From contig CAADGK010000143.1 in assembly GCA_900696515.1 (NCBI GenBank), forward strand, positions 1 through 64,000: 64,000 nucleotides of DNA, read 5' to 3'. Under the pieces are notes generated by a model that worked only from the letters and a program-made list of their open reading frames with translations, made no database searches and was not told where the DNA came from. Each line of letters begins with the position of its first letter. Positions within the stretch are counted from its first letter, which is position 1. Below, piece after piece: positions 4,039-50,003 of the stretch. Made by a program: the position numbers and the translations under genes. Origin of the DNA: an uncultured Nitrosospira sp. GTDB taxonomy: Bacteria; Nitrospirota; Nitrospiria; Nitrospirales; Nitrospiraceae.

Positions 4039-4152
4039 AGCAGTCTCCCCCTTCATCCCAAAGAAATATTCGGGCGGCTTATTGAATATCCGCGCGCCCT
4101 AGCCCCGGCCGGCTGTTCATGGATCGTCGAACGCGTATCGGTCGCACCGCAT

Positions 4153-31370: not shown

Positions 31371-31721
31371 TTAGACATGTTCTCCGAACAGCACCCCCTT
31401 GGCTCCCGCTAGGTTCTTGGCCAGATCGATCACTTCCTTGGGGGGAATCTGTCGAATCACTTCTCCGGAATCCCCCTTGAGAATTTTGACGATGACCCGT
31501 TGAAGATCAGGATCGACTTCGATCTGCAACTGAGAACCCGATTGCTGTAAGACTTCCTTGACTTTACTCACGGCTTGCTCAAGCGCGACCCGATCCGTGG
31601 GAGAGGCGAACGAAAAGTCAGCCGTCGCTTCCACAGGCTTGGTCCTGGGAGGAACACCGGCGTGACTTTTGTTGTTGGCAGCGGCCGGGAGATCCACCTT
31701 CGATGTTACATTGGTGATCAT
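31371..31721 (-). CDS. flaG: FlaG-family protein
   Basis: 116 residues; the conserved C-terminal half (LQIEVDPDLQRVIVKILKGD, EVIRQIPPKEVIDLAKNL) identifies FlaG, linked in other bacteria to filament length control. Lies between flagellin and fliD, its usual place. The N-terminal half is variable. Confidence 0.92.
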   Translation of the reverse strand: MITNVTSKVDLPAAANNKSHAGVPPRTKPVEATADFSFASPTDRVALEQAVSKVKEVLQQSGSQLQIEVDPDLQRVIVKILKGDSGEVIRQIPPKEVIDLAKNLAGAKGVLFGEHV

Positions 31722-32816: not shown

Positions 32817-33344
32817 TCAGGCGGCAATCCTCGGCAGGATTTCGTACTCCAGCAGATCGGCCATCCTCACCGTGTCATGGCTGCCCCTTGCCGCCAGAAG
32901 CTCTTCGATCCACCCTGCCATGACCTGCCCCGAAGACCCGGTTCCGACCCGTTTCCGGCCGTTCTCGATGACCTCGACTACGTCCGCGACTTTTCCCAGC
33001 CAGAGGTCGAATGCCGACAGGTCCTGTGCGCCCATCCGGAACTGATCGGCAAGCGCGGCGCCTTCGGTCACGACCAGACGACGATATCGCTCGATGGCCC
33101 CTTGTGCGGACTCAAGAATCTCCTGCTGCGTCGATGAGGTCGCGACCAACAGCCCATAGCTCGAGGAAGATTGTCGGAGCAGGTGCGGATCAATGTCCCG
33201 ATCCGTAATCCGGCGACTATCCAGGATGAGGGTCGTCACGATTCGAGCCCGCGCATGCGCCCGTTCGCTGAGATCGGCGAGGATGTCGCCGAGCGTCGCG
33301 GTACTTCCGGCTTGCCATTGTTCGTTGTCCAATTGAATATTCAT
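32817..33344 (-). CDS. Uncharacterised protein of flagellar/glycosylation locus
   Basis: 175 residues, soluble, mixed alpha/beta in the first 60 and helical later. I do not recognise the family. It carries LGDILADLSERAHARARIVTTLILDSRRI near the start. Located between the flagellin promoter and a GT9 glycosyltransferase; start supported by an adjacent GAGGAG-like site upstream. The position suggests a role in flagellin glycosylation or export, which is inference only. Confidence 0.6.
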   Translation of the reverse strand: MNIQLDNEQWQAGSTATLGDILADLSERAHARARIVTTLILDSRRITDRDIDPHLLRQSSSSYGLLVATSSTQQEILESAQGAIERYRRLVVTEGAALADQFRMGAQDLSAFDLWLGKVADVVEVIENGRKRVGTGSSGQVMAGWIEELLAARGSHDTVRMADLLEYEILPRIAA

Positions 33345-33371: not shown

Positions 33372-35045
33372 TCATGCCGCTTGCCGTTCCCGCCCGACCA
33401 CGATCAACTTGTCCGCATGACCGGCTGTGGCAGACCGATCACCGGAAGAGATGTCGACCAGATACCGCTCGATCTCCGCCAGGCGTCTCAGCCAGGTGTG
33501 GTAGGCGCCGGCCTGATGCCTCGCAAGCCGGTCCAACCCGATGACATCGTCGTTTCGTATCTGCCGGGCGAATGCCGCCGAGAGCGGGGCGAGGGCCTCC
33601 GTCGCCATGCCGATGCGAAGCAACCGCTCCTGATCGGTTCGTTGCTCATGCTGGAGCCGTTTCAACTCCGAAATATCAACCGCTGCCCTGCCCGCCGCTC
33701 GCGCAATCTCATCCGCTCTTCGACAAGCGGCCTCCAACAGAGGCTGTAGTGTCCTCAGCTGTCCCTGTACCTCCGATACATCGGGAGACATTCCTTCGGG
33801 CGGAGGCAACCGGCTCCGCAATCCCGTATGGGCTTCATACCAGTACCGTCGCCAGAACGCCGCATACCATACCGTGACGGGAGACTCCCTGCCCGCTTTC
33901 AAGCGAAATGCGCCCAACCCGTCCTCATCCACGCCGGACTCGTAGAGCCGTACTCCGGAGACCTCTGTCGGACACGGGCCGGTCTGCAATACATGACCCA
34001 GGAGATCAGCCACGAAGTCCGGTGAAATACGATCCTTACACGCATGATGCGCGCAGACTTGCTCGAACCCGCAGGGAGCACAATCCAGCTCTGGTTGGAC
34101 CACCCAATGACCGGGCCCATAGGGACCGGTTTCCTGAAAATCGACGTGTCCGACCGAAAGATCGATGACCGAGGTCCCCATCGCTACGCCGATATGCATC
34201 GGCCCTGTATCGTTGGTCAACAGCAACCGGCAGTCAGCCAGCAACCCGGCGAGTTGATTCAATGTCGTTCGTCCGGCCATGTTCATGACCGGGTTCTTCC
34301 CTCCGGCTTCTCGATAGACCTGTATGACCTCCGCAATCGTGGCTTCTTCCTCACGACTCCCGATGAAGAGAATTCCACCCTGCCATCGTTTGCTCACGTT
34401 CGCCAGGGCGAGACCAAAGAGATGCGGACGCCAGGCTTTCATCCCGTCGCTCGCCCCGGCCTGCACGGCAATCCACTCCGCTGATCCTGCGAGTGCCTCC
34501 TGCGCCCATGTGCGGTCTTCACGGGCCAGCGACAGCCGGAGCGGCGCAAATGCCCCCGGCCGACTGCCGCCCAGTGCATAGATGTCAACCAGGTTGAAGC
34601 GATTCATCCGGCGAAACAGGTGAAAGTCGCAGAAATAGGCCATCCAGGGATTCTCGACGACCAGGCCGCCGTCCCACGCGCTCCGCGCTCCTCGAATATC
34701 CGGTGCTCCGATGAATCCGGCCAAAAGTGCGCTCGGCCGGTTGAACGTCAGATTGATGACCCGATCGTACCGGCGCTCAGCCAGGGGCTTCGCCCAGGCC
34801 GCCGTCTCGTGATACAGCACAACCACATCCTTCACGTGGGCTCGGCTCTCATCGATCAGCTCGTGGAAATCCACGGCAATCACCTCGCGCAGCCCCTTCA
34901 GCAACGAGGCGACCGGCGCGAACCGGCGATCCACAAGCAGGTCGACGGCGACTCCCGGCCTTTCTTCATGGAGGCGATCCAGCAACGCGCCCATCTGCAC
35001 GAGATCGCCCATCCGGGTAATGTTCAAAATCAAGACTTGCTTCAT
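33372..35045 (-). CDS. Glycosyltransferase family 9 with C-terminal helical extension
   Basis: 557 residues. GT9 (heptosyltransferase-like) features: ILNITRMGDLVQMG at the start and CRLLLTNDTGPMHIGVAMGT near residue 270. A Cys-rich stretch after it (CAPCGFEQVCAHHACKD) resembles those in other GT9 proteins. Residues about 390-557 are a helical extension not found in LPS heptosyltransferases. Such fusions occur in flagellin glycosylation islands. It likely transfers a heptose or heptose-like sugar. Confidence 0.85.
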   Translation of the reverse strand: MKQVLILNITRMGDLVQMGALLDRLHEERPGVAVDLLVDRRFAPVASLLKGLREVIAVDFHELIDESRAHVKDVVVLYHETAAWAKPLAERRYDRVINLTFNRPSALLAGFIGAPDIRGARSAWDGGLVVENPWMAYFCDFHLFRRMNRFNLVDIYALGGSRPGAFAPLRLSLAREDRTWAQEALAGSAEWIAVQAGASDGMKAWRPHLFGLALANVSKRWQGGILFIGSREEEATIAEVIQVYREAGGKNPVMNMAGRTTLNQLAGLLADCRLLLTNDTGPMHIGVAMGTSVIDLSVGHVDFQETGPYGPGHWVVQPELDCAPCGFEQVCAHHACKDRISPDFVADLLGHVLQTGPCPTEVSGVRLYESGVDEDGLGAFRLKAGRESPVTVWYAAFWRRYWYEAHTGLRSRLPPPEGMSPDVSEVQGQLRTLQPLLEAACRRADEIARAAGRAAVDISELKRLQHEQRTDQERLLRIGMATEALAPLSAAFARQIRNDDVIGLDRLARHQAGAYHTWLRRLAEIERYLVDISSGDRSATAGHADKLIVVGRERQAA

Positions 35046-35147: not shown

Positions 35148-36965
35148 TTACACCAGATCTTTTGTCTCAGCCCGATAACTGTCGAGCATCAGGACAAGCA
35201 ACTCCTCCCGGGCCAGTTGTCGTCCGGACGCACGCGCGCGAATATCAGCTGCAAGGTCTTTCAACTCGACTCGTTGCCCCGCTGGAAAACGGTTCAACAA
35301 GGGAAGCAGCTCCGGCACCGACGCGGCTCGTTCCTTGAGGCCCGTCGTGAGCCGGTCCCCCCGCAAGATCGCGCCGATGCGATCGGGTTGCGCAAGGCCC
35401 ACCGTGGCGAGCAGCTCTTGTACACGATGCCGGTAGGTATGGTCGCGCAGCACCCGGCGACGGGACGCCTCGGCATAGCCGCGACGACCTTCCGGATCCG
35501 TCAGCCACGTCCGAATCAGCTGCGGCACATCGTCCGGACGTCGAAAGGACACCACCTCGTCCGAGGTAAACAGATCGGGAAGGAGTGTCCTGGCATCCAC
35601 GAGCTGAAATGCGCCGCAGGCCGCCAATTCAAATGTACGAGGGTTTACGAAGTCCGGCTGAGGATCCATGCCCGCCCCGGAATACGAATGCAGATTCAAA
35701 TTGACGGCCGTGGCGTTGAACACCTTCATACAGGTCTCCGTATCGATCCTGGCGCCGTTTCGTTGGAGCACTCCGGAGAGAGCCTGCGTTCCGTCCCATT
35801 CATTCCCCCACAGTTTCATCGTCCACTCGCTCGACAACCACTGGGGCAAGAGACTCCGTCGGTTGGCATAACCGGCCCCGACGAAGGAAACGTCGGCTCC
35901 ATAGTCCTGTTGTTCGGTCTGGGTGAGCGTCATCGGGCGATGCACCGCGGGATCGGCCGCCATGGGCAAGTAATGCACGTGTGCCGCCCCGGCCCTCTTC
36001 AATGCGGCATGGCAGTCCCCTTGCTGAATGACGAACCAGTAGTCATACCCGGCCGCCAACTGTTGCCAGTAGGTCAGATGGCGATAGTTCTCCACGAACC
36101 ACATGGCCGTGACAAACTTCTTCTTCCGCAAATGTTGCAACACCGCCAAGGTCATCGGAGCTTGGGCAATGGCAAGAACCAGATCGGGCGGATCCTCCGC
36201 GAGATGCGCCATCGTGCTCAGGCTGAGGACGTCGGCGAATCGGCTTTGGAGCATCAGGCGATGGCGTTCGTCGCGATAGGATCCGAAGGCCTCGTAGCTC
36301 TCCTGATGCACATGGTGATCCAGCCAACTGACCCGATGCCCCAGCTCGTTCAACGCCGAGACGACCGAGCGGGCGATCGGAAGCGATCCCCCGTAGATCG
36401 GACCGACCACCGCCACATGCAGTCGGCCTCCCGTTTTGTCGGCCATCATTCGGCGCAGGCTTGCCTCGAGACGCTGATGGAAGTCGGCATGGAAACGCGC
36501 CGCCGGCCCATACGTAAGGAAACGAAGCGGGGACGACCGTGCCTCCAACTGCGCGGCCACGTCTTCGGCCGTACCGGTCACCCATTGCACGCTGTTGATC
36601 CACGATCCGAGCGGCCTCGCACCCAGTGCATCTTTCAAAACGGACGGATCCGGTACCACGACGACCATTCGGGCATCGGGAGGGCGAGAATGGGCGAGTG
36701 CCTCCACGTGATAGAGGAGGCCGACCCCGAGCACCACCGCCACCTCTTCGTGCTTCCATTCCTTGAGTTGCTGTTCTGCCCAGGACCTGGCTTCCTTCTT
36801 GGGATCGTAGGCACTGTGGACCCATTGATCGTGATACCTCGCCGAAGGAGACCCCTCACGTGAGGGAACCATCGCAAGGACCCCACCGGAGCAGGTCCGC
36901 AGCAGGGCGACAAGATCAGGGGCGATCTGACGAAGGTTGTCTAGGTTGTGGTTCAGGTACTCCAC
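35148..36965 (-). CDS. CgeB-like glycosyltransferase (DUF3880 type)
   Basis: 605 residues. The middle has DVSFVGAGYANRRSLLPQWL and WGNEW, and the C-terminal half has NPRTFELAACGAFQLVD with SFRRPDDVPQLI, as in CgeB/spore-maturation type GT-B glycosyltransferases found in flagellin glycosylation loci. GTG start at 36965 behind GAGGAG. It starts 11 bases after the stop of the GT9 gene at 36977. Confidence 0.85.
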   Translation of the reverse strand: MEYLNHNLDNLRQIAPDLVALLRTCSGGVLAMVPSREGSPSARYHDQWVHSAYDPKKEARSWAEQQLKEWKHEEVAVVLGVGLLYHVEALAHSRPPDARMVVVVPDPSVLKDALGARPLGSWINSVQWVTGTAEDVAAQLEARSSPLRFLTYGPAARFHADFHQRLEASLRRMMADKTGGRLHVAVVGPIYGGSLPIARSVVSALNELGHRVSWLDHHVHQESYEAFGSYRDERHRLMLQSRFADVLSLSTMAHLAEDPPDLVLAIAQAPMTLAVLQHLRKKKFVTAMWFVENYRHLTYWQQLAAGYDYWFVIQQGDCHAALKRAGAAHVHYLPMAADPAVHRPMTLTQTEQQDYGADVSFVGAGYANRRSLLPQWLSSEWTMKLWGNEWDGTQALSGVLQRNGARIDTETCMKVFNATAVNLNLHSYSGAGMDPQPDFVNPRTFELAACGAFQLVDARTLLPDLFTSDEVVSFRRPDDVPQLIRTWLTDPEGRRGYAEASRRRVLRDHTYRHRVQELLATVGLAQPDRIGAILRGDRLTTGLKERAASVPELLPLLNRFPAGQRVELKDLAADIRARASGRQLAREELLVLMLDSYRAETKDLV

Positions 36966-36976: not shown

Positions 36977-38161
36977 TCAGACCGCAGTCGGGTGCAAATC
37001 GTTCCAGATTTGTTCTCGTTCAAGCGGGGCGACCGGTTCCTGGCCCGCCTGAACATAGTACGCTCCCCACCGATCCCGTTGGCTGTTCCATAACGACCAG
37101 TTTGGAACCGACGCGACCGGCTGATTGGTCAGGAGGGCGATGGTCTCCTCGATCGGCCATCGCGTCGGCTGAATGGTCTCTCCGGCCCGACCGTCTACGC
37201 CCTCCGCTTGCCAGACCCAATGGCTCTGCCCGTAGGGTCCCGTCTCATGAACGCGCGCCCTGGCACAGTACCACCCGATCACCTGGGTCCCCACCGCCGC
37301 CGCCAGATGAAGGGGGCCGGTATCGGCTCCGATCACCACCCGGCAACGGGTCAGCGTCTGCGCCAATTCCGTCAGCGAAAGACGACCGGTCGTGTCCCAG
37401 ACTCGCCCGACGAGTGAAGAAGACAGCGCGGTCTGAATCCACCCGGCCCGTCCCTGTTCTTCACCACTTCCCAGCAAGACGACACGACTTCCGTGAAGGG
37501 CCCCCAAGCAACCTGCAATCACCTCCGCCCAGACCGTGACCGGAATCAGCCGTTCCGGAGCGCCGGCCCCCACCAGGAGTCCGATCCACGGTCCGGAAGA
37601 TTGTCCGATCGGATCAAGATCATGCGGAAGCGGGACGGAGCGCACCGGTATCGGCGGCACGTCTCTGGGTGGATGGACACCGCACATCCCACAGAAGGCA
37701 TCCGCCAGGTGAATGCGATTCGCCCGTCGATCCCTGGCGATCGCTCTTACATAGGCTGCCCAGGGCGATAACGTCTGATCGAGCGGCCTGCCGATGATCG
37801 CTCCCATGCTCTCCCGAGCAAGCAGTGCCCCGGCCAGAATGGCCCGAGGATGTTGATTGAGCACACAAGCGTAATCATAGGGTTCTTGCGTGACGGCACG
37901 AATATCCGCATCGGCTTCGACGACATACTCAGGCCGGAATTCCTTCTCGGCCCGGCGCGCGCGTCGACTCCACTCTGTTCCGTCCCACCCCACGACCGTG
38001 GAAATTCCCGGCAGGATCCGTCCGATATCCTGCAAGTGCGCCGGACAGAGCAAATCCAGCATCCAATCTGCATGAGCTTCTTTCAGCGCCGTGACGGCCG
38101 GAATCGTCTGCACGAGATCACCGAGCCTTGCAAGCTGGATGAGAAGCGCACGTTTTCCCAC
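36977..38161 (-). CDS. Glycosyltransferase family 9 (heptosyltransferase-like)
   Basis: 394 residues. LLIQLARLGDLVQTIPAV at the N-terminus and CRVVIGADTGPLHLAAAVGT plus HETGPYGQSHW near residue 275-310 define GT9. GTG start with an upstream GGGGACA. Adjacent to the CgeB-like gene, probably acting on the same glycan. The acceptor is unknown; flagellin is likely from context. Confidence 0.87.
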   Translation of the reverse strand: MGKRALLIQLARLGDLVQTIPAVTALKEAHADWMLDLLCPAHLQDIGRILPGISTVVGWDGTEWSRRARRAEKEFRPEYVVEADADIRAVTQEPYDYACVLNQHPRAILAGALLARESMGAIIGRPLDQTLSPWAAYVRAIARDRRANRIHLADAFCGMCGVHPPRDVPPIPVRSVPLPHDLDPIGQSSGPWIGLLVGAGAPERLIPVTVWAEVIAGCLGALHGSRVVLLGSGEEQGRAGWIQTALSSSLVGRVWDTTGRLSLTELAQTLTRCRVVIGADTGPLHLAAAVGTQVIGWYCARARVHETGPYGQSHWVWQAEGVDGRAGETIQPTRWPIEETIALLTNQPVASVPNWSLWNSQRDRWGAYYVQAGQEPVAPLEREQIWNDLHPTAV

Positions 38162-38325
38162 GTCACTGTCCCCTACTTCTTGCTTGCCTTGACCACGGAG
38201 ACCGCCATCACCTATTCACCGTTGACACGAAGCCTGCGCGCGCGTTGGAGAGTAGGAGGTCCGAGGTTTGAATCGTGAGATGTATGCCTCCGACTTCCGA
38301 CCTCACGCTTCCACCAGTGACCGTT

Positions 38326-41300
38326 TCACGCTTCACCGTTCACGAACGACGAACTGGCCATGGCAAGAGCCGCTTCCCTGCCGGCAATGGCCTGGCCAAG
38401 CTGAACCAGTCCGTCATAATGCGAGTCGGCCGCGCACAGGGCATCGTATTCCCTGCGAGCGGCCTCGATGTGCTCACCGCGCAACAGAACGCCGGTCAAG
38501 GCGAAGCGCGCGGCAAGATCCTCCTGATTTCTCGCCGTATACAAATACAGGTGTTCGCCCAATTCCTGCCACCGATTTTGTGCCGTACCGGCACGGAGCA
38601 GCCAGTGGATCGCCTCCGCGTCATCGGGATGCTCTCGCAGCACCTCAAGAAACCTCTCCCAGGCTCCCTGGGTATAGGCTCGTCCCATGGCGGCCATTCC
38701 CATTCCCATCAGGCATTTTCTTCGGTCGGCGCCCCCCCGAAGCGCCGCGCTGAATGCAGACTCCGCTTGTTCATACTGTTCCCTCTGTATACAGAGGATG
38801 CCCTTGAGCACCAAGCCTTCCGCGTGATCAGGCGACGCATCCAGCAGGGTTCGTAGCTGTTCCTCCGCGCCCGGCACGTTCTTCTGTTCCAGAAGCATGC
38901 GGATCAATTCGAGCCGCTCAGCAGGCGCATCGACCAATGTCAGACGTCGCGCAAGGAACTTTGCGCGATGAACCGGCTCATCCAGCCGTTCTGCTACCAT
39001 GGCCCCCCAGGACAGCACGAATCGGTCGTTCGGCCAGTAGTCCGCCATTCCAAGTTCCCATCTGACGGCCCCCCAATCTTTCTTCAGCGCCGCTCGTTGG
39101 GCGGCGGCGACATGGGCCCAGGCGGCCTGATCCTGCACGTCATGGAAGGGCTTGATTTGCGTCGCAAAGTTGACATCCTGATCGCCGCCGACGAGTTTGA
39201 GTCCATCCTGGTGATAGTACAGATCTTCATCCCCAAGCCACCAATGTGACCCCCATCGTTCCTCCAGCAATCGGCTGTTGTGGACATCCTGATCTTTTCG
39301 ACCCGGTGTCTGGCTCTCCAGATGGTACAAGACGCTGCGTGGCTGATAGACGATGAGATATCCCTTCTCCCGTGCCTTCAGACACAAATCCACGTCCTCA
39401 AACCCGTTGACAAACTGGTCATCGAAACCGTGTACCTCCTCAAAGAGTTTCCGGCGAACCAGCATGCAGGCCGCGGTCACGGCCTGGAATTCACGCCGCT
39501 GATTGACGCCCGGGCTTGAACTTGGAGCCGTTCGATAGATGTGATAGGCGCTTCTCCGCGAGCGCATGAATACGACGCCGGCATGCTGAACGGATCCGTC
39601 GGCGAAGAGCAGCTTGCTTCCCACGATGGCCACGTCCGGATGAGCCTGGACCTCATCCACCAGCGCCTTGAGCCACCCTTGCAACGGAATCGTATCATTG
39701 TTGAGAAACACCAGATAATCCCCTGTAGCGGCGGCGGCGCCTTGATTGCACGCCTTGGCGAAGCCTAAATTCTCCCGATTCCGGATCACCTGCACATCGC
39801 CGCTCAACGACCCCAGGAACTCCTGCGTGCCATCGGTTGAGCCGTTATCCACGACGATCACCTCATAGTCCGGCTGGTCTTGCAGCTGAGACAACGCCGT
39901 CAGGCAGTCCCGCGTCAGATCAAGCCGATTGGATACCGGTATGACGATCGAGCACACATACGACTTTGCGGCGGTCTTTGGAAAACAGTTCGCAAGATGC
40001 CGCGCCTGCGCTTCACGAACCCCGGGAATTTGCGCCGCGTGAGGCGCATATTTGCGATAGATGATCTCGGTCGTACGCTGATAGGTCTCTCGTGTCCCGC
40101 TGGTCATGGAAGTGCCGTCACTGCGCCAGGTGAACTCGGCCGTGGTCACCGGCAGATGCATGAACGGGAATCTGGTCGCCATTCTGATCCAGAGATCCCA
40201 ATCTTCATGTGCAAACAGCGATTCATCGAAGTACCCCACCTCCTCCAAACACTGCCGCGCATGCATGACGCACAAGACCGGGAAATAGTTGCCGACCAAC
40301 AGCTCGGCCGGATTGAAGTCGCACGAGTACGGAACATCGCGCCCGGTCTCGACGTAGATACCGTCGACCTGCCGTTCATGCACGCGCCAGGCATCGGTGT
40401 AGGCGACCCGGGACTCCTGCCGCTCCAGACAGGCGACCAGGGTTTCCAGATGGTGGGGCAGGTACCGGTCATCATCGTCAAGATACGCGATATAGGTTCC
40501 CTTCGCCGCGCGGAGTCCGCTGTTCCTGGCGGCGGCCAATCCCCGGTTCCGATCATGGCTGATCGTGGTGATCCGATGCCGATCGACACAGGCGTTCACC
40601 ACGAACCCCACCTCACAACCCGCATCGTTGACGACGATGACCTCGAAATCCTGGAAGGTCTGAGCCGCCAGGCTCTCGAGCGCGGTCCGCAAGCGATCGG
40701 GCCGGTTGTACGTCGGGACAATCACGGACACCTTCGGACTTCGGGTAAACGGAATGGGCCTGGGGTGAGCGCTTCGCTGGCAGACCCAGACCTGGTAAAT
40801 CGGGAGCAGGTTCATGGATCGCATGTCGGCCGGCGTCGGTGCCGGGACGAACCGGAGATTCGGCACTTCGACGTAGACGCGCTCGAGTCCCAGCTCGGAG
40901 AATCCCTGCGACGCGAAAAGAGCACGCAGTTGCTCCTCGGTCACCCAGTCTTCCACCGGCTGATTCGGCGGTGCGATCGTCTTCCACTGTTCCCACGTTT
41001 CTCCTCGCGGCGTCGTGAGAATCAGATAGCCGTCCGGCTTGAGCAGTCGGGCCAGTTGCGCCAGGAACGTTTCCTTTTTCCCGTTCGGAACATGCTCGAT
41101 CACTTCCGACGTCACCACCACGTCATAGGGGGCAAAGTCCGGTCGGCTGAGAACGCTGTCCGCCGTGCCCGCTTCAAAGCGGAGATGGGGAAACAACGTA
41201 CGCGCCCGTTCGATGACTCCGGCGACCGGCTCAATCCCTTCGCATGTTCCATAGGCCGCAGCCAGATTGGTGAGCCACCCGCGACCACACCCGACGTCCA

Positions 41301-43605
41301 ATATTCGGAGCTGTTGGTTCGGCTCCTGCTGCCGTACTCGGCGCAGGATGTATTCCAAAGACGCGGCTATCTTGCTCCAGCGGGCGGCCTCGTCGGCGTT
41401 CGGATAGGGTGTCGACCAGTGCGGCTTGTTCACGAACAGATCGACGTAGAACTCATCCTGCGTCGTGTCCGCCTCCGTCGCCGACTCACATGGCTCAGGG
41501 ATGTGCGGGCATTCGATGCCCTCGACTCCGTACCGAGGTTCGATCCCATCTTGGATCCAACACAGGGTTTCCCGTAGGCGCCGCTCGGCGGTATGGTAAC
41601 GACGGACTCGCTCCTGTCCTTTGCGCGCTACGGCTGCCGCATATCGGGGATCATGCCTAAGACGGTCGATTTGGGCGGCCAACGCGGCGGGATCGTCGGA
41701 ATTGAACAATATGATCTCTTCGTCCGGTTCAAAAAGGGAAAGATTCCTCGGATGGTTCGGCACGTGCCATGAGATCACCGGCCGTCCGGCGGCCATCCCC
41801 TCCATCACACGGCCGCCATAGAACTTGGCGAGACTCGGCAGATTGACGATCGCAGGCCAGTCAGGGAGTCGGCCCATCCAGTCGGAGAATTCCGCCACCC
41901 GAATCTTCTGGAGCGATTCGGCATGCTCTCGTAACAACCGGGGCGTCAACGGTTGGCCCGATTGCAGCAACTGCTCGGCCATATGCTGCAGGTGATCGAA
42001 GAGTTGCTGGTTTTTCGTCGGGGGCTGGTCCGCTCCGGCGCACTGCAACCGATGGTGCAAGAGCGGGTGAACCGTCCAGCGTTGTCGACGACCATACGGA
42101 GTCCCATGAAACACGGCATCTTGTTGAGTCGGACGCGCGTTCGGTGACACGACGAAGCGCTCCGGTACCATGGCCGGCCACCAGAGCGCCCGTACTCTGC
42201 CGATCGCGTTGATGTCGGCTGCATCCTGCTCGTCCGGCGCGAGCACATGGGTGAGATACGGTAACTGGCTGTCTACCTGCTCGCGACGGCCTCTGAGATG
42301 GGGCGCCCAGCGATAGTCGTCTTCGTCGTATCGAAGGGATTCCATCACGACCCCGACCCGGACGGGAGCAAGCCCTGACAGCCACTCCAGCGTGGCTTCA
42401 TCCAGAGGAGTATGAACCAGCCAGATCCAAACTTGATCGAACCGCTGCCCGGACAACAGCGTTTTCATATGCGAGAGCCACGAAGCCTGACTCGAGCAAG
42501 GATGCTCCGCAATCGCGGGTACCGTCACGCACTCGACACCGTTGGCCGTAAGCCCCTCTTGCACTCCGTACGCGGCGCAATAGGACCAGGCACGCGCCCT
42601 CGCCCATGTTTGGAAATCCAGTTGAATCAGCAGCGCCTTCGTCCGTTTTTCTCCGCGCCCGTTCAGCGATGATGCAGGGAGCACGCCGGTGGATACGTGA
42701 ACTGGTCCGTCGCGTCCGTCCATGGACGTCCGAGCCGACATCCACTGGCGAAACTCAGGATCGGCGCCCGGATCATGCGGTTGAAGATGCCGTGGAATAT
42801 TCTCCGGCACCGGGCTGATGTCCGCTGTGGACACCGGTTCCCATTGGCCGCCCGTTCTTCGCATCGCCCAGCACCCGGCGACACTGGCGACCGGTCCCAA
42901 CAGTTCAGCGACTGCGAGCGTCACCCCGGGATGAAAATCCTTCCCGGACCGAGGGTCGCGTATATAGTCGTCCTTGACCTTGGTTCTCGCATGGGCTTCA
43001 TCGATCTCGGAGAGCTGCAGCTCCAAATCGTCACCGCAGAGAATTCCTCCCTCTCGGACTACACGCATGGCCATCTTCACGTCTTCCGACACAGCCTGAT
43101 AAGAATGGTCGCCGTCGACAAAGACGATGTCGAAGTATCCGTGCGGGAGCATGGGAAGCACTGCGGTACTCTGCCCCCTGAGGGTCAAGACGACATCTGA
43201 ATGTCCTGCTGCGTTGACGTTGTGGGTGAACAAGTCGTATATAGTGTCCTGCTCTAACGCCTCAGCCATACGGCGGTAGACAGGGGCATCGGGACGATCC
43301 GTTGGATTGAAATACGGTTTCCACGGATCAACACAAATAACTTTCCCTCCCTTCGCGTATCGCTTGATGGCTTCCGCCCAGGTAATGGCAGACCCTCCGG
43401 CCCAGGACCCAACCTCGAGGATGCGGAGCGGTGATCCGGATTGGCGCGATGCTTCCAACCGAACCAATTCCTGCATGACCACGTGACGGAGCGGAAGCCC
43501 TTGAGAGGCCCACATATGACGGCCGAAATATGGCCGCCGGCGCTCCCGGCAGAATTCGTAGTAGGCTGCTTCTACGGTATGTGCTGTGCGCTCTTCGGCC
43601 ATCAT
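38326..43605 (-). CDS. Five-domain methyltransferase/glycosyltransferase fusion with TPR tail
   Basis: 1759 residues. Order: SAM methyltransferase (about 25-230; ILEVGSWAGGSAITWAEA, FVDGDHSYQ); a GT-B CgeB-like domain (330-690; GRVMEGMAAGRPVISWHVPN); a second SAM methyltransferase (735-930; LDVGCGRGWL); two GT-A family 2 domains (965-1190 VSVIVPTYNRPD; 1220-1480 IVIPVSNRLDLT, VDNGSTDGT); a C-terminal TPR-like region (1560-1740). It could add and methylate several sugars on one acceptor. The ATG at 43605 follows AAAGGG; an ATG at 43632 would overlap the upstream stop. No membrane segment. Confidence 0.9.
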   Translation of the reverse strand: MMAEERTAHTVEAAYYEFCRERRRPYFGRHMWASQGLPLRHVVMQELVRLEASRQSGSPLRILEVGSWAGGSAITWAEAIKRYAKGGKVICVDPWKPYFNPTDRPDAPVYRRMAEALEQDTIYDLFTHNVNAAGHSDVVLTLRGQSTAVLPMLPHGYFDIVFVDGDHSYQAVSEDVKMAMRVVREGGILCGDDLELQLSEIDEAHARTKVKDDYIRDPRSGKDFHPGVTLAVAELLGPVASVAGCWAMRRTGGQWEPVSTADISPVPENIPRHLQPHDPGADPEFRQWMSARTSMDGRDGPVHVSTGVLPASSLNGRGEKRTKALLIQLDFQTWARARAWSYCAAYGVQEGLTANGVECVTVPAIAEHPCSSQASWLSHMKTLLSGQRFDQVWIWLVHTPLDEATLEWLSGLAPVRVGVVMESLRYDEDDYRWAPHLRGRREQVDSQLPYLTHVLAPDEQDAADINAIGRVRALWWPAMVPERFVVSPNARPTQQDAVFHGTPYGRRQRWTVHPLLHHRLQCAGADQPPTKNQQLFDHLQHMAEQLLQSGQPLTPRLLREHAESLQKIRVAEFSDWMGRLPDWPAIVNLPSLAKFYGGRVMEGMAAGRPVISWHVPNHPRNLSLFEPDEEIILFNSDDPAALAAQIDRLRHDPRYAAAVARKGQERVRRYHTAERRLRETLCWIQDGIEPRYGVEGIECPHIPEPCESATEADTTQDEFYVDLFVNKPHWSTPYPNADEAARWSKIAASLEYILRRVRQQEPNQQLRILDVGCGRGWLTNLAAAYGTCEGIEPVAGVIERARTLFPHLRFEAGTADSVLSRPDFAPYDVVVTSEVIEHVPNGKKETFLAQLARLLKPDGYLILTTPRGETWEQWKTIAPPNQPVEDWVTEEQLRALFASQGFSELGLERVYVEVPNLRFVPAPTPADMRSMNLLPIYQVWVCQRSAHPRPIPFTRSPKVSVIVPTYNRPDRLRTALESLAAQTFQDFEVIVVNDAGCEVGFVVNACVDRHRITTISHDRNRGLAAARNSGLRAAKGTYIAYLDDDDRYLPHHLETLVACLERQESRVAYTDAWRVHERQVDGIYVETGRDVPYSCDFNPAELLVGNYFPVLCVMHARQCLEEVGYFDESLFAHEDWDLWIRMATRFPFMHLPVTTAEFTWRSDGTSMTSGTRETYQRTTEIIYRKYAPHAAQIPGVREAQARHLANCFPKTAAKSYVCSIVIPVSNRLDLTRDCLTALSQLQDQPDYEVIVVDNGSTDGTQEFLGSLSGDVQVIRNRENLGFAKACNQGAAAATGDYLVFLNNDTIPLQGWLKALVDEVQAHPDVAIVGSKLLFADGSVQHAGVVFMRSRRSAYHIYRTAPSSSPGVNQRREFQAVTAACMLVRRKLFEEVHGFDDQFVNGFEDVDLCLKAREKGYLIVYQPRSVLYHLESQTPGRKDQDVHNSRLLEERWGSHWWLGDEDLYYHQDGLKLVGGDQDVNFATQIKPFHDVQDQAAWAHVAAAQRAALKKDWGAVRWELGMADYWPNDRFVLSWGAMVAERLDEPVHRAKFLARRLTLVDAPAERLELIRMLLEQKNVPGAEEQLRTLLDASPDHAEGLVLKGILCIQREQYEQAESAFSAALRGGADRRKCLMGMGMAAMGRAYTQGAWERFLEVLREHPDDAEAIHWLLRAGTAQNRWQELGEHLYLYTARNQEDLAARFALTGVLLRGEHIEAARREYDALCAADSHYDGLVQLGQAIAGREAALAMASSSFVNGEA

Positions 43606-43615
43606 CTCAACCCTT

Positions 43616-45454
43616 TCACGGCGGAGTGGCATTGTTGGGACGGATCACATCGGGCATTTCCGGTTTCTCCCACCCGTCCACCGGTTCGATCGACAGGTTC
43701 TTCCTGAACTCCTCGCGCGGCAGATAGGGATACATATCCTCGATCGGCGTTTTCCATCCGAAGATTCTCGGTTCATAGGTGTGGTACTCGTGCATATCGA
43801 CATCGCAGACCACCGGCCCATCGAACCCGAGAACCTGATCGATCTTGGCCTCCATCTCGGCATGGTTGCCGATCGCCACCGTCTTAATGCCGTACGCCTC
43901 GACCAATTTCAGGAAATCCGGCGGCCGGTATCCCTTCGGACCGCACGCTTCGGCACGCCCTTGGAAGTTGGTCTCCTGATACGCCTTGGTGATCCCGTAA
44001 ATGTGGTTGTTCAGGATGAACGTCTTGACCTTTACCCCGTAATTGATGAACGTCTGCAACTCTTGCAGGTTCATATTGAAACCACCGTCGCCGATCGTGC
44101 AGACGACCCGGCGGGACGGATCCGCAAACCAGGCCCCCATGGCGCCGGCAAACGAAAAGCCCATCGGTGAGTTGCCGTTGTTCGTCAGATTCCGTTGACC
44201 ATACTTCGTCTCAAATGCGTGGTTGCTGACGACGATGTTGCCGCCGCAATCGCCGACCAGAATGTCGGTCGCGCTCATTTTTTCCGACAGACGTCTCATG
44301 AATGCATAGGGATGCACCCGTTCGGCTTGGGTGAAAAACTCTGGCCGGACCGGATCATAGGCCCGCTTCCAACCCATGACCCGGGAGGTCCATGCGGACC
44401 AATCCGGACAGGGTTTCTTCGCCCGGTCCAACGCGACGAGCATCCGTTGGGCAAACACCTTCGCGTCGCAAAGTATGTTCACGTCGAAAGGGACTTGCTG
44501 AAACTTCCGCTGCACCATGGCCGGATCGATTTCCACCAGATATTTCCTGGCCTGCCTCGCAAAGCTCTGTACGTTGCCGCCCGTAATGCGCCCGGAAATC
44601 CGGCTGCCGATCGAGAGCAGGAGATCGCTGTTCTGAATGCCGAAGTTCCGCCCCGCGCCCCCATACGTGCCGACGCGTCCGCCGTAGAATTCATAGTCGG
44701 AGGAAATGATATCGAGCGCGTTCCAGGTCGGAAAGCAGGGGATCTTCAGCCGGCGCCCCAGTTCACGTACCTCGTCCTGGGCGTCGGCCAGCCGCACACC
44801 GCCGCCGATGAGTATGACCGGGCGTTCCGCCGCGCGCAGATCGTCGAGCAACTTGTGAATCTGTCGATCCACGACCTCGATGTCGTAGCCGGCCGCGGCC
44901 GGGGGCTCGAACCCGACCAGTTGCTTCACATCAATCTTGGCCTTTTGAATGTCGAGCGGGATATCGAGCAAGACAGGCCCCGGACGGCCGTGCTGACAGA
45001 TCCACAGCGCCTTCTCCACTTCGTAGCGCACATCCTCCGCCTTCATGAGCATCTTGGCGTACTTGGTCACCGGAGCCTCCATGGCGACGATGTCCGTCTC
45101 CTGGAAGCCGATCTGCCGAATCGACGGATCGGGGCGGAGAAAGCGAGAATTGATCTGCCCCGTCAGGAAGACGCAGGGAATGGAGTCGTAAAAACAGTTC
45201 CCCATCGAGGTGAGCAGATTCATCCCGCCGGGCCCGCTGGTGGCGATCGCCACGCCGGGAATGCCCTTCACCTTGGCATACCCTTCGGCGGCAAACCCAC
45301 CGGCCTGCTCATGCATGACCGCTACATAACCCGTGGCCGCCGTCCGAGTGAACGCATCGATCAAATCGCCGTTCGCCGCGCCATAGACAACGAACATTTT
45401 GTCGATGCCCCGTTCCGCGAGGGTATTGATGATGTAGTCCGCCACTTTGATCAT
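43616..45454 (-). CDS. ThDP-dependent acetolactate-synthase-like enzyme
   Basis: 612 residues with all parts of the acetohydroxyacid synthase fold: catalytic Glu49 in MHEQAGGFAAEGYA, a middle domain, and the thiamine diphosphate motif GDGGFNMNLQELQT followed by FILNN. Housekeeping ilvB is not expected in a glycan operon. YerE of Yersinia, a ThDP enzyme of this family, adds a two-carbon unit to a 4-keto-3,6-dideoxy sugar; a similar role fits here but is inference. AAGGAG precedes the ATG. It ends 10 bases before the fusion gene's start. Confidence 0.82.
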   Translation of the reverse strand: MIKVADYIINTLAERGIDKMFVVYGAANGDLIDAFTRTAATGYVAVMHEQAGGFAAEGYAKVKGIPGVAIATSGPGGMNLLTSMGNCFYDSIPCVFLTGQINSRFLRPDPSIRQIGFQETDIVAMEAPVTKYAKMLMKAEDVRYEVEKALWICQHGRPGPVLLDIPLDIQKAKIDVKQLVGFEPPAAAGYDIEVVDRQIHKLLDDLRAAERPVILIGGGVRLADAQDEVRELGRRLKIPCFPTWNALDIISSDYEFYGGRVGTYGGAGRNFGIQNSDLLLSIGSRISGRITGGNVQSFARQARKYLVEIDPAMVQRKFQQVPFDVNILCDAKVFAQRMLVALDRAKKPCPDWSAWTSRVMGWKRAYDPVRPEFFTQAERVHPYAFMRRLSEKMSATDILVGDCGGNIVVSNHAFETKYGQRNLTNNGNSPMGFSFAGAMGAWFADPSRRVVCTIGDGGFNMNLQELQTFINYGVKVKTFILNNHIYGITKAYQETNFQGRAEACGPKGYRPPDFLKLVEAYGIKTVAIGNHAEMEAKIDQVLGFDGPVVCDVDMHEYHTYEPRIFGWKTPIEDMYPYLPREEFRKNLSIEPVDGWEKPEMPDVIRPNNATPP

Positions 45455-45475: not shown

Positions 45476-46984
45476 TCAGACCGCCGGCATGGCCGCGGCG
45501 TCGCGATGGCGCCGTCGGACGTGATGAGCACACATCTCCCTGACGTGATCAGCCACATGGCGGCCGAAGGTCCGGTGCAGCAGCCCGAGATACGACGGAT
45601 GCTGGAAATACTCCAGGAAGGCCCGGTCGCGGAAATCAAGCACGTCGATGGCCGCCAACCGTTCGGTCGGCAACGGCAGCGTGTCATAGGCATGCTGTGA
45701 ATACCCGATCCATCCCGGCCCTCCCAGATCATCAGGGAGCGGCCACCCCTTGTCTTTCGCCAGACCGTACAGGGGCGATCCCGGGTACGCCATGGCGCAA
45801 TAAAAGTTGGCCCACTCCGTATTCAGCTCAAGCGCCAAGTCCAGCGTCGCCCGCATGCTGGCCGGAGTATCGTCGGGCAGCCCGAAAATGTAATTGGCGG
45901 CGACGTAGATGCCATGGGACCGAATACGTTCTACCGTCGCAACAATCTCCCGGTCTCCGAACCGGCCTTTCTCCACACCGTCGCGGACGTGCTGGCTGCC
46001 GGACTCAATACCCAGTCCCAGCCAGTGGAACCCTGCTGCTTTCAGTTTTTCGAGAACCTGGTCCTGTACGGTGTCCACACGGGCATACGCCCAAATATTG
46101 AGGTGGTAGCCCCGTTCGATGATCCTGTCGCAAATACCCAGCACATGCCGCCGGTTCAACACGAACATCTCATCCGGAATCTTGATATTGGTGACGCCAT
46201 AGTCCAGGACCAGCCGGTCAATCAGGCGAATGACGTGATCGGGGCTCCAGGTCCTGAGCATCGGCGTATCAAACGGCGCATTGATGCAACAAAACGAACA
46301 TTTGAAGGGGCATCCCAGGCTCGTTTGTAACGAGGCATAGGGACTGCGGGATTCGAGATGGTCGAAACAATGCCAGTTGTGGGCGCGATAGCGGCTCATA
46401 TCGAGCAAGTCCCACCCCTGACCGGGCAACTCCCGGTCGAGATCAGCAATCAGCGGCGCAGGAGGATTCGAACGGATCACGCCCTGTTCCCGATACCAGA
46501 GTCCCGGCACGTCCTTGAGGGTTCCGACACCATCCCGCAGCACTCGCAGCAGGCCCAATACGGTGTAAGGCCCTTCCCCCTGGCACACATACGTATAGGG
46601 TTCTTCCAGCAGCGTTCGTCCAGGCAACGCCGACGGATGCGTCCCCATCACAAGCGTGGGAATATCCGACAACGCCTGCAGTTCTTCGCAGACACGCCGT
46701 CCGGCCGGCATGCATTGCGTGGAGGCCGAGGGTTGTTGCCCATAAATGACGAACACCGCCACGCGGGGATCGGCCTGCGCGATGGCCTGAGCGGTTTGCC
46801 TATGGGTGAATCCTTTCGCCTCTGCGTCGAGAATCCCCACATCGTACCCGTGAGCCTGGATGCAGGCCGCCATCAGTCCCGCCCATACGGGCGGCTCGAT
46901 CGCGGCCAGGTTCCGGCTCAAGTCCTGATAGACTTCCACCCGACTGGGAGGTGTGATGAAGAGCACGTCGTTACGCAGCGACAC
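45476..46984 (-). CDS. B12-binding-domain radical SAM protein
   Basis: 502 residues. The N-terminal third is a Rossmann-like B12-binding domain without the DxHxxG His; then the radical SAM core with CPFKCSFCC (CxxxCxxC) and the ESGSQHVRDGVEKGR segment. Class B enzymes of this layout often methylate unreactive carbons or rearrange skeletons. The GTG at 46984 is chosen because GGGAGG lies 6 bases upstream; it overlaps the aminotransferase stop by 14 bases. The open frame up to 47188 translates the opposite frame of that gene. Substrate unknown; likely a sugar or its amino-acid side group. Confidence 0.85.
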   Translation of the reverse strand: MSLRNDVLFITPPSRVEVYQDLSRNLAAIEPPVWAGLMAACIQAHGYDVGILDAEAKGFTHRQTAQAIAQADPRVAVFVIYGQQPSASTQCMPAGRRVCEELQALSDIPTLVMGTHPSALPGRTLLEEPYTYVCQGEGPYTVLGLLRVLRDGVGTLKDVPGLWYREQGVIRSNPPAPLIADLDRELPGQGWDLLDMSRYRAHNWHCFDHLESRSPYASLQTSLGCPFKCSFCCINAPFDTPMLRTWSPDHVIRLIDRLVLDYGVTNIKIPDEMFVLNRRHVLGICDRIIERGYHLNIWAYARVDTVQDQVLEKLKAAGFHWLGLGIESGSQHVRDGVEKGRFGDREIVATVERIRSHGIYVAANYIFGLPDDTPASMRATLDLALELNTEWANFYCAMAYPGSPLYGLAKDKGWPLPDDLGGPGWIGYSQHAYDTLPLPTERLAAIDVLDFRDRAFLEYFQHPSYLGLLHRTFGRHVADHVREMCAHHVRRRHRDAAAMPAV

Positions 46985-48173
46985 GGATGCCTCCCAGTTC
47001 CTGGCTGAGCGCGATGACGCGTCGCACTCCTTCCATGACGTCTGCCTCCTGACCGCACGTGGCAATACGGATCGCCGTATCCCACGCCGGACCAAAACTT
47101 CGCCCGGGCGTAACGGCAGTCTGATGGCTATCCAGCAGCCTCCGGCAAAACGCCATGTCTTCCAAACCCACGGCACTGATGTCGACAAAGAGATAGAAAC
47201 CCGACTCCGGCGCGGCGCACCGCAGCAGACCCGATCGGTTGATCGCCTCGGCGCAGGCCGCCGTGACTCTGTTGCAGTGAGACCGGACCTTCTCCACGTA
47301 CGGCTCCATCACGGACATTCCGGCCAGGCAGCCAAGCTGCGTAAACAAGGGCAGACAGGAGATCAGCGTCGAGGTGGATAATGCGAGCTTGTTGATCACG
47401 TCCGGATGGGCCAGCGCATAGCCCGTCCGGTACCCGGGAATAGAAAACAGCTTCGAGAAGGACGACAGGACCACCGCCTGTGGAGTCGGACAGGAGGCCA
47501 GGCTGAAAAAGGGCCAGCCGAACGAGAGCTCTCCGTAGGTCTCATCACTCAAGAGCCAGATTCGCTCCTCCTCGCATCGCCGAGCCAGCAGTTCCAGCAT
47601 CGGTCTGGTGTATACCGCGCCGGTCGGATTGTTGGCGGAATTCACGATGACCGCTTTGGGCCTGGCGGCGATGGCCTCGTCGATCTGCGCCTCGCCGAGG
47701 TGAAACCCGTTCTCGGCCGTCAAGGGCACCGCGATCACATCCAGCCCGATATGAGACGCCGCCGCCCAATACGAGGGAAACGCCGGTGTAAAGAGCGCCA
47801 GCCGGTTCCCCGGGTTACAGGTCAGATCAAGAAACTGGCTGATCAGCAGATTCGCGGGACTGATGGCCACATGCCTCGCCTCATACTCGTGGCCGGTCCG
47901 GTGCCGATATCGGTCGGCCACAGCCTCGCGTAATTCGAGCAGCCCGCCCATCGGCGCATACCCGACATGCTTGGCCCTAATGGCCTCGATGGTGGCGTCC
48001 ACGATATCAGGCGGCGGAGCCATTCTGGGATTGCCGAGCTCCAGGTGATACACCTGCTTCCCCTGCCGCTCAAGCTTCTGCGCACGCTCCATCACTTTGA
48101 ACATCTCTTGCCCCACGAGATGTTGGCCTCGCAGGGAAAACGGCAATGTCGTCGGCAGCGATGCGTGTGTCAT
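46971..48173 (-). CDS. Pyridoxal-phosphate aminotransferase, class I/II
   Basis: About 400 residues. Fold type I aspartate-aminotransferase-like: NSANNPTGAVYT, DETYGEL, and the PLP lysine in SSFSKLFSIPGYRTGY. Enzymes of this subgroup act on amino acids or keto acids rather than nucleotide sugars. Start taken as the ATG at 48173 (GAGGG upstream). Tightly packed between the guanylyltransferase and the radical SAM gene, so it likely serves the same product. Confidence 0.88.
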   Translation of the reverse strand: MTHASLPTTLPFSLRGQHLVGQEMFKVMERAQKLERQGKQVYHLELGNPRMAPPPDIVDATIEAIRAKHVGYAPMGGLLELREAVADRYRHRTGHEYEARHVAISPANLLISQFLDLTCNPGNRLALFTPAFPSYWAAASHIGLDVIAVPLTAENGFHLGEAQIDEAIAARPKAVIVNSANNPTGAVYTRPMLELLARRCEEERIWLLSDETYGELSFGWPFFSLASCPTPQAVVLSSFSKLFSIPGYRTGYALAHPDVINKLALSTSTLISCLPLFTQLGCLAGMSVMEPYVEKVRSHCNRVTAACAEAINRSGLLRCAAPESGFYLFVDISAVGLEDMAFCRRLLDSHQTAVTPGRSFGPAWDTAIRIATCGQEADVMEGVRRVIALSQELGGIRVAA

Positions 48174-48180
48174 GATCCCT

Positions 48181-48936
48181 CTACTGCAGCCGGAGATTCC
48201 GCTCCTCAACTCCGCCCCCTACGCCGGCCCCGGCCTGCCTGATGAAGGCGTCGAGGCGCTCCGGAGTCCCGATATCGTACAGAGGCTGATAAAACACCTG
48301 TCCGTAGATCCCCTCGGTCAGGAGACCCGGCAGCAAGTCTTGCTCCAGGGAATAGGGCCGGCCGGCCGGAATCCGGTCCAGTACGGCCCGGTCACACACA
48401 TAGATCCCGGCATTGTGGAATCGTATCTCGCGGTCAGTCTGCGTGTCGGAAAATGACATCAGCCTGCCCGCATGATTCACCGTCACACATCCCGCATCCG
48501 TCCGTGAATCGGCCGGCGTGAGCGCGAGGGTCACCGGTCCGGTCGTGGCTGTATGACGCGAGAGCAATGCCTGGAGATCAACCTCGCACAGCGAATCACC
48601 GTTGAGCACCATGAACGGATTCGTGCGGATCAGCGAGGCGGCATGCTTCAACGCCCCGGCCGTGCCCAGCGGAACCGGTTCACAGGAGAACCGCACATCA
48701 CAGGACTGAGGATGGGCGGCATACCATTCGCGAAACTGGTCTCCGAGATATCCGGTACAGAGGATGACCCGGCGCACCCCTTGCCCTGTACAATAGGCCA
48801 GGACGCGATCCACAAACGGCCGATCATCGATCATCACCATGGGCTTGGGCCGATCCTTGACGACCGATCGCAGTCTCCTCCCTTGCCCCCCACAGAGCAC
48901 CAGCGCATCACAGTCTGCTACACCCATCATGGTCAT
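48181..48936 (-). CDS. hddC: Sugar-phosphate nucleotidyltransferase, HddC-like
   Basis: 251 residues. LVLCGGQGRRLRSVVKDRPKPM is the nucleotide-binding signature and VLNGDSLCE the metal/sugar site. Closest in pattern to D-glycero-D-manno-heptose-1-phosphate guanylyltransferases, an assignment supported by the kinase gene directly upstream, whose stop it overlaps (4 bases). It would form a GDP-heptose. A hexose-1-phosphate substrate cannot be excluded. Confidence 0.8.
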   Translation of the reverse strand: MTMMGVADCDALVLCGGQGRRLRSVVKDRPKPMVMIDDRPFVDRVLAYCTGQGVRRVILCTGYLGDQFREWYAAHPQSCDVRFSCEPVPLGTAGALKHAASLIRTNPFMVLNGDSLCEVDLQALLSRHTATTGPVTLALTPADSRTDAGCVTVNHAGRLMSFSDTQTDREIRFHNAGIYVCDRAVLDRIPAGRPYSLEQDLLPGLLTEGIYGQVFYQPLYDIGTPERLDAFIRQAGAGVGGGVEERNLRLQ

Positions 48937-50003
48937 GCAGCCTTGCCCACTGCCGCTCCGGCATTGAAGACCGCGGATTTGTTCTCCGGCCCGCAGTCAG
49001 GCGCCTGCAGGACGGAAGATTCCTGCTGATAGAAGACGATCTGGGTGCCTTGATGTTCAAACCGGAACGGTACCTGCAACAAACCCGGTAACGCCGCTCT
49101 GATCTGAGCATGCATCTCGGGCTTCGCAAAAAGCAGTATGAACCCGCCTCCGCCGGCGCCCAGCAATTTCCCACCGATGGCGCCCGCTCGTCTGGCCGCG
49201 TCGTAGATGTCATCGATCATCGGCGTCGTGATCTTAGAGGTCAGGCCTCGTTTCACCATCCAGGATTCGTGCAGCAATTCTCCGAACTCGGAGAGATCCC
49301 GATCTCCGACCAGCACGGAGACGCCCTCCTGCACCATTTGCAACATGGCGAAGAGCTCGACCCGTCGGTGCTTGGTATGGGCGATCTGCTCCTTGGCGAT
49401 CACCGACGCCGTGCGGGAAAAGCCGGTAAAGTACAGCAGCAAATGATCCTGAAGCTGCGCGAGACGTTCCGGTCCCATGACGATCGGGGTGTACCCGATG
49501 TCTCCGTTCTGAAAAAAGTTGACGCGGCACAATCCCCCGTGCGCCGCCAAGACTTGATCCTGACAGCCAACGGCTTCCTGCAGCACCTCCTGCTCGATAT
49601 GGATGGCGGTACGAGCCAGCTCGTCCTTGCTCGGCATCCGATGTCGCAACGCGTGCAAGGAATGGAGCAGTCCGACGGTAAACGACGAGCTTGATCCCAA
49701 GCCGGTGCGCGCCGGAAGATCTCCATCGTGATGAATCTCCAACCCCTCCTCAACATTCAAATACTGCAGCACGCCTCGCACCGCCGGATGCTCGATGTCG
49801 CTGTTGGACCTCGTCTGCTCAATCCGCGAATAGGCGATACGGGTCTTGTGTTCGAAAAACGGCGGCAAATAGCGACAGCTCAGGTAACAGTACTTGTCGA
49901 TCGTCGTGGCGAGCACGGCGCCTCCGTGCTCTTTGAACCAGACCGGATAATCGGTGCCCCCGCCGAAGAACGAAATGCGGAATGGCGTGCGGCTGATGAT
50001 CAT
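48933..50003 (-). CDS. hddA: GHMP-family sugar kinase, heptose-7-phosphate kinase-like
   Basis: 356 residues. PFRISFFGGGTDYPVWFKE at the start, PARTGLGSSSSFTVG as the ATP-binding motif 2, and LGAGGGGFILLF as motif 3. The GGGTD start is typical of HddA, which phosphorylates D-glycero-D-manno-heptose 7-phosphate at C1. GAGAGG lies upstream of the ATG. Together with the next gene it forms a GDP-heptose module. Confidence 0.82.
   Translation of the reverse strand: MIISRTPFRISFFGGGTDYPVWFKEHGGAVLATTIDKYCYLSCRYLPPFFEHKTRIAYSRIEQTRSNSDIEHPAVRGVLQYLNVEEGLEIHHDGDLPARTGLGSSSSFTVGLLHSLHALRHRMPSKDELARTAIHIEQEVLQEAVGCQDQVLAAHGGLCRVNFFQNGDIGYTPIVMGPERLAQLQDHLLLYFTGFSRTASVIAKEQIAHTKHRRVELFAMLQMVQEGVSVLVGDRDLSEFGELLHESWMVKRGLTSKITTPMIDDIYDAARRAGAIGGKLLGAGGGGFILLFAKPEMHAQIRAALPGLLQVPFRFEHQGTQIVFYQQESSVLQAPDCGPENKSAVFNAGAAVGKAA

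Follow-up and report, generated by a model that had tools for sequence, protein, structure and literature searches.

A modular enzyme proposed to assemble the flagellin glycan of Nitrospira, with a variable front on a constant GT2-TPR end

Flagellin glycosylation islands, fusions of glycosyltransferases with methyltransferases, and TPR-bearing flagellin transferases are already known. GmaR of Listeria is a flagellin O-GlcNAc-transferase composed of a GT2 domain followed by a TPR region (PMC9638930, PMC3150276), and the TPR has been proposed to recognize flagellin (PMC9638930). The TPR module of Caulobacter FlmG, a modular soluble enzyme, has been shown to bind flagellins (PMC7591256). Cytosolic flagellin is the direct target of FlmG, Maf, and GmaR (PMC7591256, PMC4065374, PMC9638930). 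The flagellin enzyme GT2 of type B C. difficile (CDR20291_0242), encoded beside fliC, is a GT2-methyltransferase fusion that transfers two rhamnoses, which it has also been proposed to methylate (PMC5207246). Fusions of GT41 with methyltransferases are found in flagellin islands of enterobacteria, the content of which varies between strains (PMC4875605). WsaE, from the S-layer glycan pathway of Geobacillus, combines a methyltransferase with two glycosyltransferase domains in one chain and methyl-caps its product (PMC2943079). A limited literature search, in which absence proves little, returned nothing on flagellin glycosylation in Nitrospira or on flagellin glycosyltransferases with shuffled modules.

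The window, a 64,000-nucleotide stretch of a contig, encodes a protein that joins two methyltransferases, a GT-B domain, two GT2 domains, and a C-terminal TPR region (Table 1). The protein shares with GmaR the order of GT2 followed by TPR; however, GmaR has a single GT2 domain, contains neither methyltransferase nor GT-B, and carries a C-terminal antirepressor part. In the AlphaFold2 model of the window protein, the chain ends at the TPR solenoid, and the antirepressor part is absent. FlmG differs in its N-terminal TPR, single GT-B domain, transfer of pseudaminic acid, and lack of a methyltransferase, and no module exchange has been reported for it. The C. difficile enzyme has only two domain types, with no GT-B and no TPR reported. 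The combination of methyltransferase and two glycosyltransferase domains that characterizes WsaE is also present in the window protein; however, the S-layer glycan is made on a carrier and exported, and WsaE has no TPR. In the enterobacterial islands, the glycosyltransferase belongs to the GT41 family, and the variation reported is in gene content rather than in intragenic swaps of modules (PMC4875605). The features that appear to be new are the long fusion and, above all, the intragenic exchange of cassettes on a constant, presumed docking end.

Table 1 Features of the modular enzyme and its neighborhood (positions in the window).
Feature	Position	Strand	Remarks
Multidomain flagellin-glycan enzyme gene (putative)	38326..43605	-	1759 aa from ATG 43605
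MT1, SAM methyltransferase (Methyltransf_24)	43027..43419	-	aa 72-202; missing from most congeners
GT-B (GT4-type) glycosyltransferase	41545..42642	-	aa 331-696
Mosaic junction	41443..41475	-	aa ~720-730; in linker between GT-B and MT2
MT2, SAM methyltransferase (Methyltransf_23/UbiG-like)	40768..41397	-	aa 746-955
GT2a glycosyltransferase	40018..40749	-	aa 962-1205; DDDDR and HEDWDLW motifs
GT2b glycosyltransferase	39208..39963	-	aa 1224-1475; constant across complete relatives
TPR-type helical solenoid	38335..39138	-	aa 1499-1766; constant C-terminal part, probably binds flagellin
GT9-family glycosyltransferase	36977..38161	-	next downstream of modular enzyme in Nitrospira loci
DUF3880/Glyco_trans_1_2 glycosyltransferase	35148..36965	-	constant
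GT9-family glycosyltransferase (second)	33372..35045	-	constant
Conserved 175-aa protein	32817..33344	-	between FliC and GT9 gene; in nearly all Nitrospira loci
Flagellin FliC	31796..32623	-	275 aa; probable substrate
FlaG	31371..31721	-	
FliD filament cap	29949..31349	-	reference gene in congruence test
TPP-dependent enzyme	43616..45454	-	acetolactate-synthase-like, below equivalog cut-offs; presumed sugar precursor gene
B12-binding radical SAM enzyme	45476..47188	-	listed frame; actual start probably more internal
PLP aminotransferase	46971..48209	-	
Sugar-1-phosphate nucleotidyltransferase	48181..48936	-	HddC/ManC-like, below cut-off
GHMP sugar kinase	48933..50003	-	HddA-like, below cut-off
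NAD-dependent sugar epimerase/dehydratase	50037..50990	-	
GDP-fucose-synthase-like reductase	51000..51953	-	below cut-off
Sugar aminotransferase, RfbH/PseC type	51950..53149	-	below cut-offs
FlgL-type hook-associated protein	59713..61476	-	Flagellin_N match; other flagellar border of island

The reading frame 38326..43632 (-) is uninterrupted and comprises 1768 codons counted from its first ATG, at 43632. This ATG overlaps the end of the preceding gene for the TPP-dependent enzyme, and a Shine-Dalgarno-like AAAGGG is positioned ~6 nt 5' of the ATG at 43605, which is therefore the preferred start. Residues are numbered throughout from the upstream ATG, as in the 1768-residue version. An open frame of this length, kept across the whole family, is, judged from the sequences, not a product of chance. 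The initial annotation had described a five-domain enzyme with a TPR region in one chain; the five domains are the catalytic ones and the TPR is a sixth part, and the fusion is confirmed by the open frame and by Pfam scores above the curated cut-offs for all five: Methyltransf_24 for MT1 (aa 72-202, 72.1 bits, cut-off 26.3), Glyco_trans_1_2 for GT-B (aa 597-689, 55.8 bits, cut-off 25), Methyltransf_23 for MT2 (aa 769-911, 74.8 bits, cut-off 27), and Glycos_transf_2 for GT2a and GT2b (208 bits, cut-off 23.3, in two stretches at approximately aa 967-1182 and 1228-1399). Only the TPR of the window protein falls below the Pfam cut-offs (TPR_16, 23.6 bits against 32.7; TPR_19, 21.8 bits against 25), and it is backed by the profiles of relatives and by the model. 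TPR_19 exceeds its cut-off in relatives (43.5 and 35.5 bits), a profile of 53 sequences matched an engineered TPR protein among solved structures at 1e-16, and the AlphaFold2 model contains a solenoid of 15 helices at aa ~1499-1766, mostly with pLDDT of 92-97. As modeled, the C-terminal region is a TPR solenoid. In the window protein, no Pfam match to the MptE-like Maf domain (PF01973) was found, and no membrane segment is evident.

The sequence motifs of the catalytic domains are present, with methyltransferase glycine motifs at residues 73 and 779, the GT-B glutamate at 611, DDDDR (1052) and HEDWDLW (1142) in GT2a, and NND (1311) and GFED (1410) in GT2b. In alignments of the relatives, the acidic motifs of GT2a and the motif glycines of MT2 are invariant, and the NND of GT2b is retained in at least 90% of rows. 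According to structure comparison, GT-B is complete, with model residues 330-696 aligning to GT-B enzymes at Z ~19-23, and MT2 has the fold of class I methyltransferases (Z ~19-21). The fold of GT2a is nearest to AvpGT and SpsA (Z 25-27). The fold of GT2b is near that of polypeptide GalNAc-transferases (Z ~21-23), which hints that GT2b may act on protein or on an inner sugar. A fragment of GmaR (22ao) matches GT2b over ~108 residues of the catalytic core with E 5e-7; chondroitin synthase and other GT2 enzymes score better. The linker at aa 705-722, between GT-B and MT2, is modeled with low confidence.

The modular enzyme and the sugar genes are positioned between the FlgL-type gene and the genes for flagellin, FlaG, and FliD. 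As in a flagellin glycosylation island, glycosyltransferase and sugar genes are inserted among late flagellar genes beside flagellin, and the glycosyltransferase gene co-occurs with flagellin across genomes of the genus. The order modular gene, GT9, DUF3880 glycosyltransferase, GT9, 175-aa protein, FliC, FlaG, and FliD is found in nearly every Nitrospira locus with enough flank. The 175-aa protein has no Pfam or NCBIfam match. A donor sugar was sought in the likeness to HddA and HddC; however, the kinase scored 121 bits against a curated cut-off of 600 and the nucleotidyltransferase 131 against 300, far under these cut-offs, and therefore no donor sugar is claimed.

The host is a Nitrospira, and nearly all close relatives of the modular enzyme are from this genus. 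Among 79 congeners, 66 carry both the gene and FliC, ten carry neither, two carry only the gene, and one carries only flagellin (Fisher 5e-10, the genomes not being independent). The classes were set by hand; FlgL-type frames were not counted as flagellin, nor was a 34% paralogue in G072 counted as the modular gene. Both congeners with the gene and without FliC are incomplete genomes, and linkage to flagellin accounts for part of the co-occurrence. The sole congener with flagellin and without the gene, G078 (L115, L116), has a different and longer flagellin of 652 aa (L116:6436-8391), and at the usual place of the modular enzyme it encodes an 895-aa Maf(MptE-like)-TPR protein together with NeuB and UDP-GlcNAc 2-epimerase. 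This appears to be a wholesale swap of flagellin plus its glycosylation system. The Maf-type protein likewise ends in TPRs, so that two unrelated presumed flagellin transferases at this locus share only their TPR end. The distribution bears on the alternative that the enzyme serves to synthesize a surface polysaccharide (LPS, capsule, or EPS) and is merely located in the flagellar region. Such pathways often contain GT2, GT4, and methyltransferase modules, and giant multi-GT2 relatives from Brocadia, Kuenenia, and others mostly have no flagellin gene nearby; however, ten of the 11 congeners that lack the gene also lack FliC, while the remaining one has a Maf/nonulosonate system beside its different flagellin, and the order with FliC, FlaG, and FliD is fixed and the TPR end constant. 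A role in surface polysaccharide is thus improbable.

The modular enzyme is likely to act in the cytosol and to assemble the glycan of Nitrospira flagellin, with a constant GT2b-TPR end and a front that serves as a swappable cassette. Very probably, it decorates the flagellum with a methylated sugar chain; the locus, the co-occurrence with flagellin, and precedent lend good support to the initial annotation of a glycan enzyme acting on the filament. The TPR solenoid would hold unexported flagellin, for which FlmG and GmaR provide precedents, and GT2b would start or extend the inner glycan alongside the constant trio of downstream glycosyltransferases. GT2a and GT-B would add further residues, one or more of which may be methylated by MT1 and MT2, possibly as caps. 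The front cassette presumably sets species-specific outer sugars. Of the two roles suggested earlier for the TPR, that of a scaffold on a filament protein is likely; nothing supports that of a ruler, and the precedents of FlmG and GmaR favor substrate binding. A stepwise, methylated oligosaccharide is a plausible product, for which the C. difficile enzyme (PMC5207246) and WsaE (PMC2943079) are precedents.

Alternatively, the oligosaccharide might be assembled on a lipid or on a free carrier before another enzyme transfers it to flagellin, with the TPR only organizing partner glycosyltransferases. This is how WsaE works in making the S-layer glycan (PMC2943079), and three more glycosyltransferases are encoded alongside. 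By contrast, the FlmG, Maf, and GmaR systems modify cytosolic flagellin directly, and no oligosaccharyltransferase or flippase was found among the scanned genes of the cluster. The carrier route is unlikely, if less so than a surface polysaccharide. It has also been considered that GT2a and GT2b form a two-site polymerase, the chain length of which is measured by the TPR and the chain of which is ended by the methyltransferases. Searches with the two-GT2 part found the bifunctional K4CP and heparosan synthase first, and a methyl cap ends the chains of WsaE (PMC2943079). However, the GT2 domains superpose well singly and jointly only with an rmsd of 13-22 Å, so that either their arrangement differs or the model is uncertain. 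Furthermore, the domain preceding GT2b differs in L091 and is swapped in other relatives, and a long polymer on every flagellin would be unusual. The probability of such a polymerase is low, comparable to that of the surface polysaccharide.

All 63 complete relatives of the modular enzyme end in GT2b-TPR, and the modules are arranged in 13 orders. The exact order of the window protein recurs in 11 other relatives, and those with a genus code belong to genus g14, not to the genus of the window; the order described at the outset is therefore one of 13, and not the general arrangement. One congener (L009) has the order of the window protein with an extra N-terminal module. Variants of the front include an inserted second GT4 segment, an FkbM methyltransferase, and CgeB-like and additional GT2 modules, and in some loci (L083, L093) front modules form a separate gene. 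Parsimony on the tree of the C-terminal part requires at least 22 changes of the front. The N-terminal modules of L055 (8909-10039, 377 aa) and L061 (8864-9997, 378 aa) have no Pfam match, and it is possible that they are new glycan-modifying domains. In a sample of 395 genomes of the phylum, the full GT2b-TPR unit is confined to the order of the host, and further out only the GT2b part matches. One Nitrospirales genome contains a 3500-aa frame (L096:9017-19516) with three GT2b-TPR units separated by a weak GT4-like segment and a methyltransferase segment. Brocadia, Kuenenia, Planctomycetota, Ignavibacteria, and others (L097-L111) have frames of 1185-3893 aa in which several GT2 domains are related to GT2a or GT2b, mostly without a flagellin gene in the flank examined.

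The histories of the two parts of the gene were compared by correlating protein distances with those of FliD, with intervals obtained by resampling loci. Across 31 loci, the correlation is high for the downstream genes and the C-terminal side (GT9a.83, G880.83, GT9b.72, TPR.71, GT2b.61) and falls along the gene towards its front (GT2a.38, MT2.33, GT-B.25). In the 18 loci that also retain the upstream sugar genes, these genes follow FliD (KIN.85, EPI1.81, NTF.74), as does the C-terminal side (GT2b.76, TPR.83, GT9b.86), in contrast to the front (GT-B -.01, MT2.19, GT2a.35). Rate alone does not explain the low congruence of the front, because the mean distances of GT-B, TPR, and GT9b are nearly equal (.48-.49). 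The upstream sugar genes were considered as the variable side; this was rejected for the loci that have them, where KIN, EPI1, and NTF track FliD like the downstream genes. The break is directly visible in pairs of loci. The proteins of L053 and N. defluvii (L080) are 97% alike upstream and 95% downstream, while GT-B, MT2, and GT2a are 50, 54, and 59% alike; their DNA agrees at 93% over 8.25 kb upstream and at 86.8% over 12 kb downstream, and between the matching flanks lie 3.4 and 5.2 kb in which nothing can be aligned. Similarly, L056 and L082 are 92-96% alike from the TPR to FlaG, and their fronts are unrelated. These comparisons show that recombination within the gene swaps the modules ahead of GT2b between species, while the flanking genes keep a common history.

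The mosaic could in principle reflect errors of binning or assembly, or a comparison of ancient paralogues, since most of the relatives are metagenome-assembled and some versions of GT-B are only 45-50% alike. However, the frames remain open across the junctions, the pattern recurs in many assemblies, and three complete chromosomes, those of N. defluvii (FP929003), N. moscoviensis (NZ_CP011801), and UBC2 (CP092081), have three different fronts. The module order is GT-B, GT2d, MT2, GT2a, GT2b, TPR in N. defluvii and CgeB-like GT, GT2c, GT2a, GT2b, TPR in N. moscoviensis. Replacement by a paralogue would itself count as cassette exchange. An artefact is hence extremely improbable.

The window gene is itself a mosaic, with a switch of ancestry near residue 725. 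Up to aa ~720, the protein is nearer to genus g14 (L023, L024), and beyond that it is nearer to its own genus. In trees, the GT-B domain groups with g14, whereas those built from MT2, GT2a, and the C-terminus place the protein with the genus of the window; AU tests reject the alternative groupings tried (p ~4e-4 or less), the groups having been named after the trees were seen. The front of the window gene may have been acquired from a g14-like donor, or it may be an old front retained while congeners replaced theirs; MT1, about equally far from g14 (60%) and from L055 (59%), favors neither direction.

Since catalytic front modules have been exchanged in an otherwise unchanged cluster, related strains probably wear different flagellar sugars. 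The usual account of the diversity of flagellin glycans is gain or loss of whole genes in the island, whereas here the variation is concentrated within one reading frame, the end of which appears to hold the substrate. The chances appear evenly balanced that the enzyme is a combinatorial assembly protein, with modules spliced onto an unvarying GT2-TPR end that docks on flagellin; phages or grazers recognizing the filament would probably be the driving force. Intragenic recombination would join methyltransferase, GT4, GT2, FkbM, and CgeB-like modules in varying number and order, with the flanking genes on both sides inherited vertically. Such a system would resemble the swapping of specificity domains in type I restriction enzymes, or the modules of polyketide synthases. 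It would also point to a surface trait on which diversifying selection acts in the main nitrite oxidisers, the phages of which are poorly known. The relatives supply a natural collection of at least 13 combinations of modules, all joined to one constant anchor, and therefore the question of whether module order corresponds to glycan order is directly testable across sequenced Nitrospira. The GT2b-TPR anchor could serve for building designed glycans on a protein.

Dispersed repeats with a seven-base period (GTGAAAC/GTGAAGC) occur in the window at 38323-38336, where one copy overlaps the stop codon of the modular enzyme gene, and at 36 places between 1074 and 28421. The repeat GTGAAACGTGAAAC has 37 matches in the window with at most two mismatches, against 0.5 expected, and the exact sequence GTGAARCGTGAARC is present in 50 copies in the genome, 11 of them on the contig of the window, while the reversed control has none. 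The window also encodes a histidine kinase of 2097 aa (5448-11741) that contains many PAS domains and a GAF domain, and PAS-bearing chemoreceptors are encoded near it at 15083-18517 and 1762-4056.
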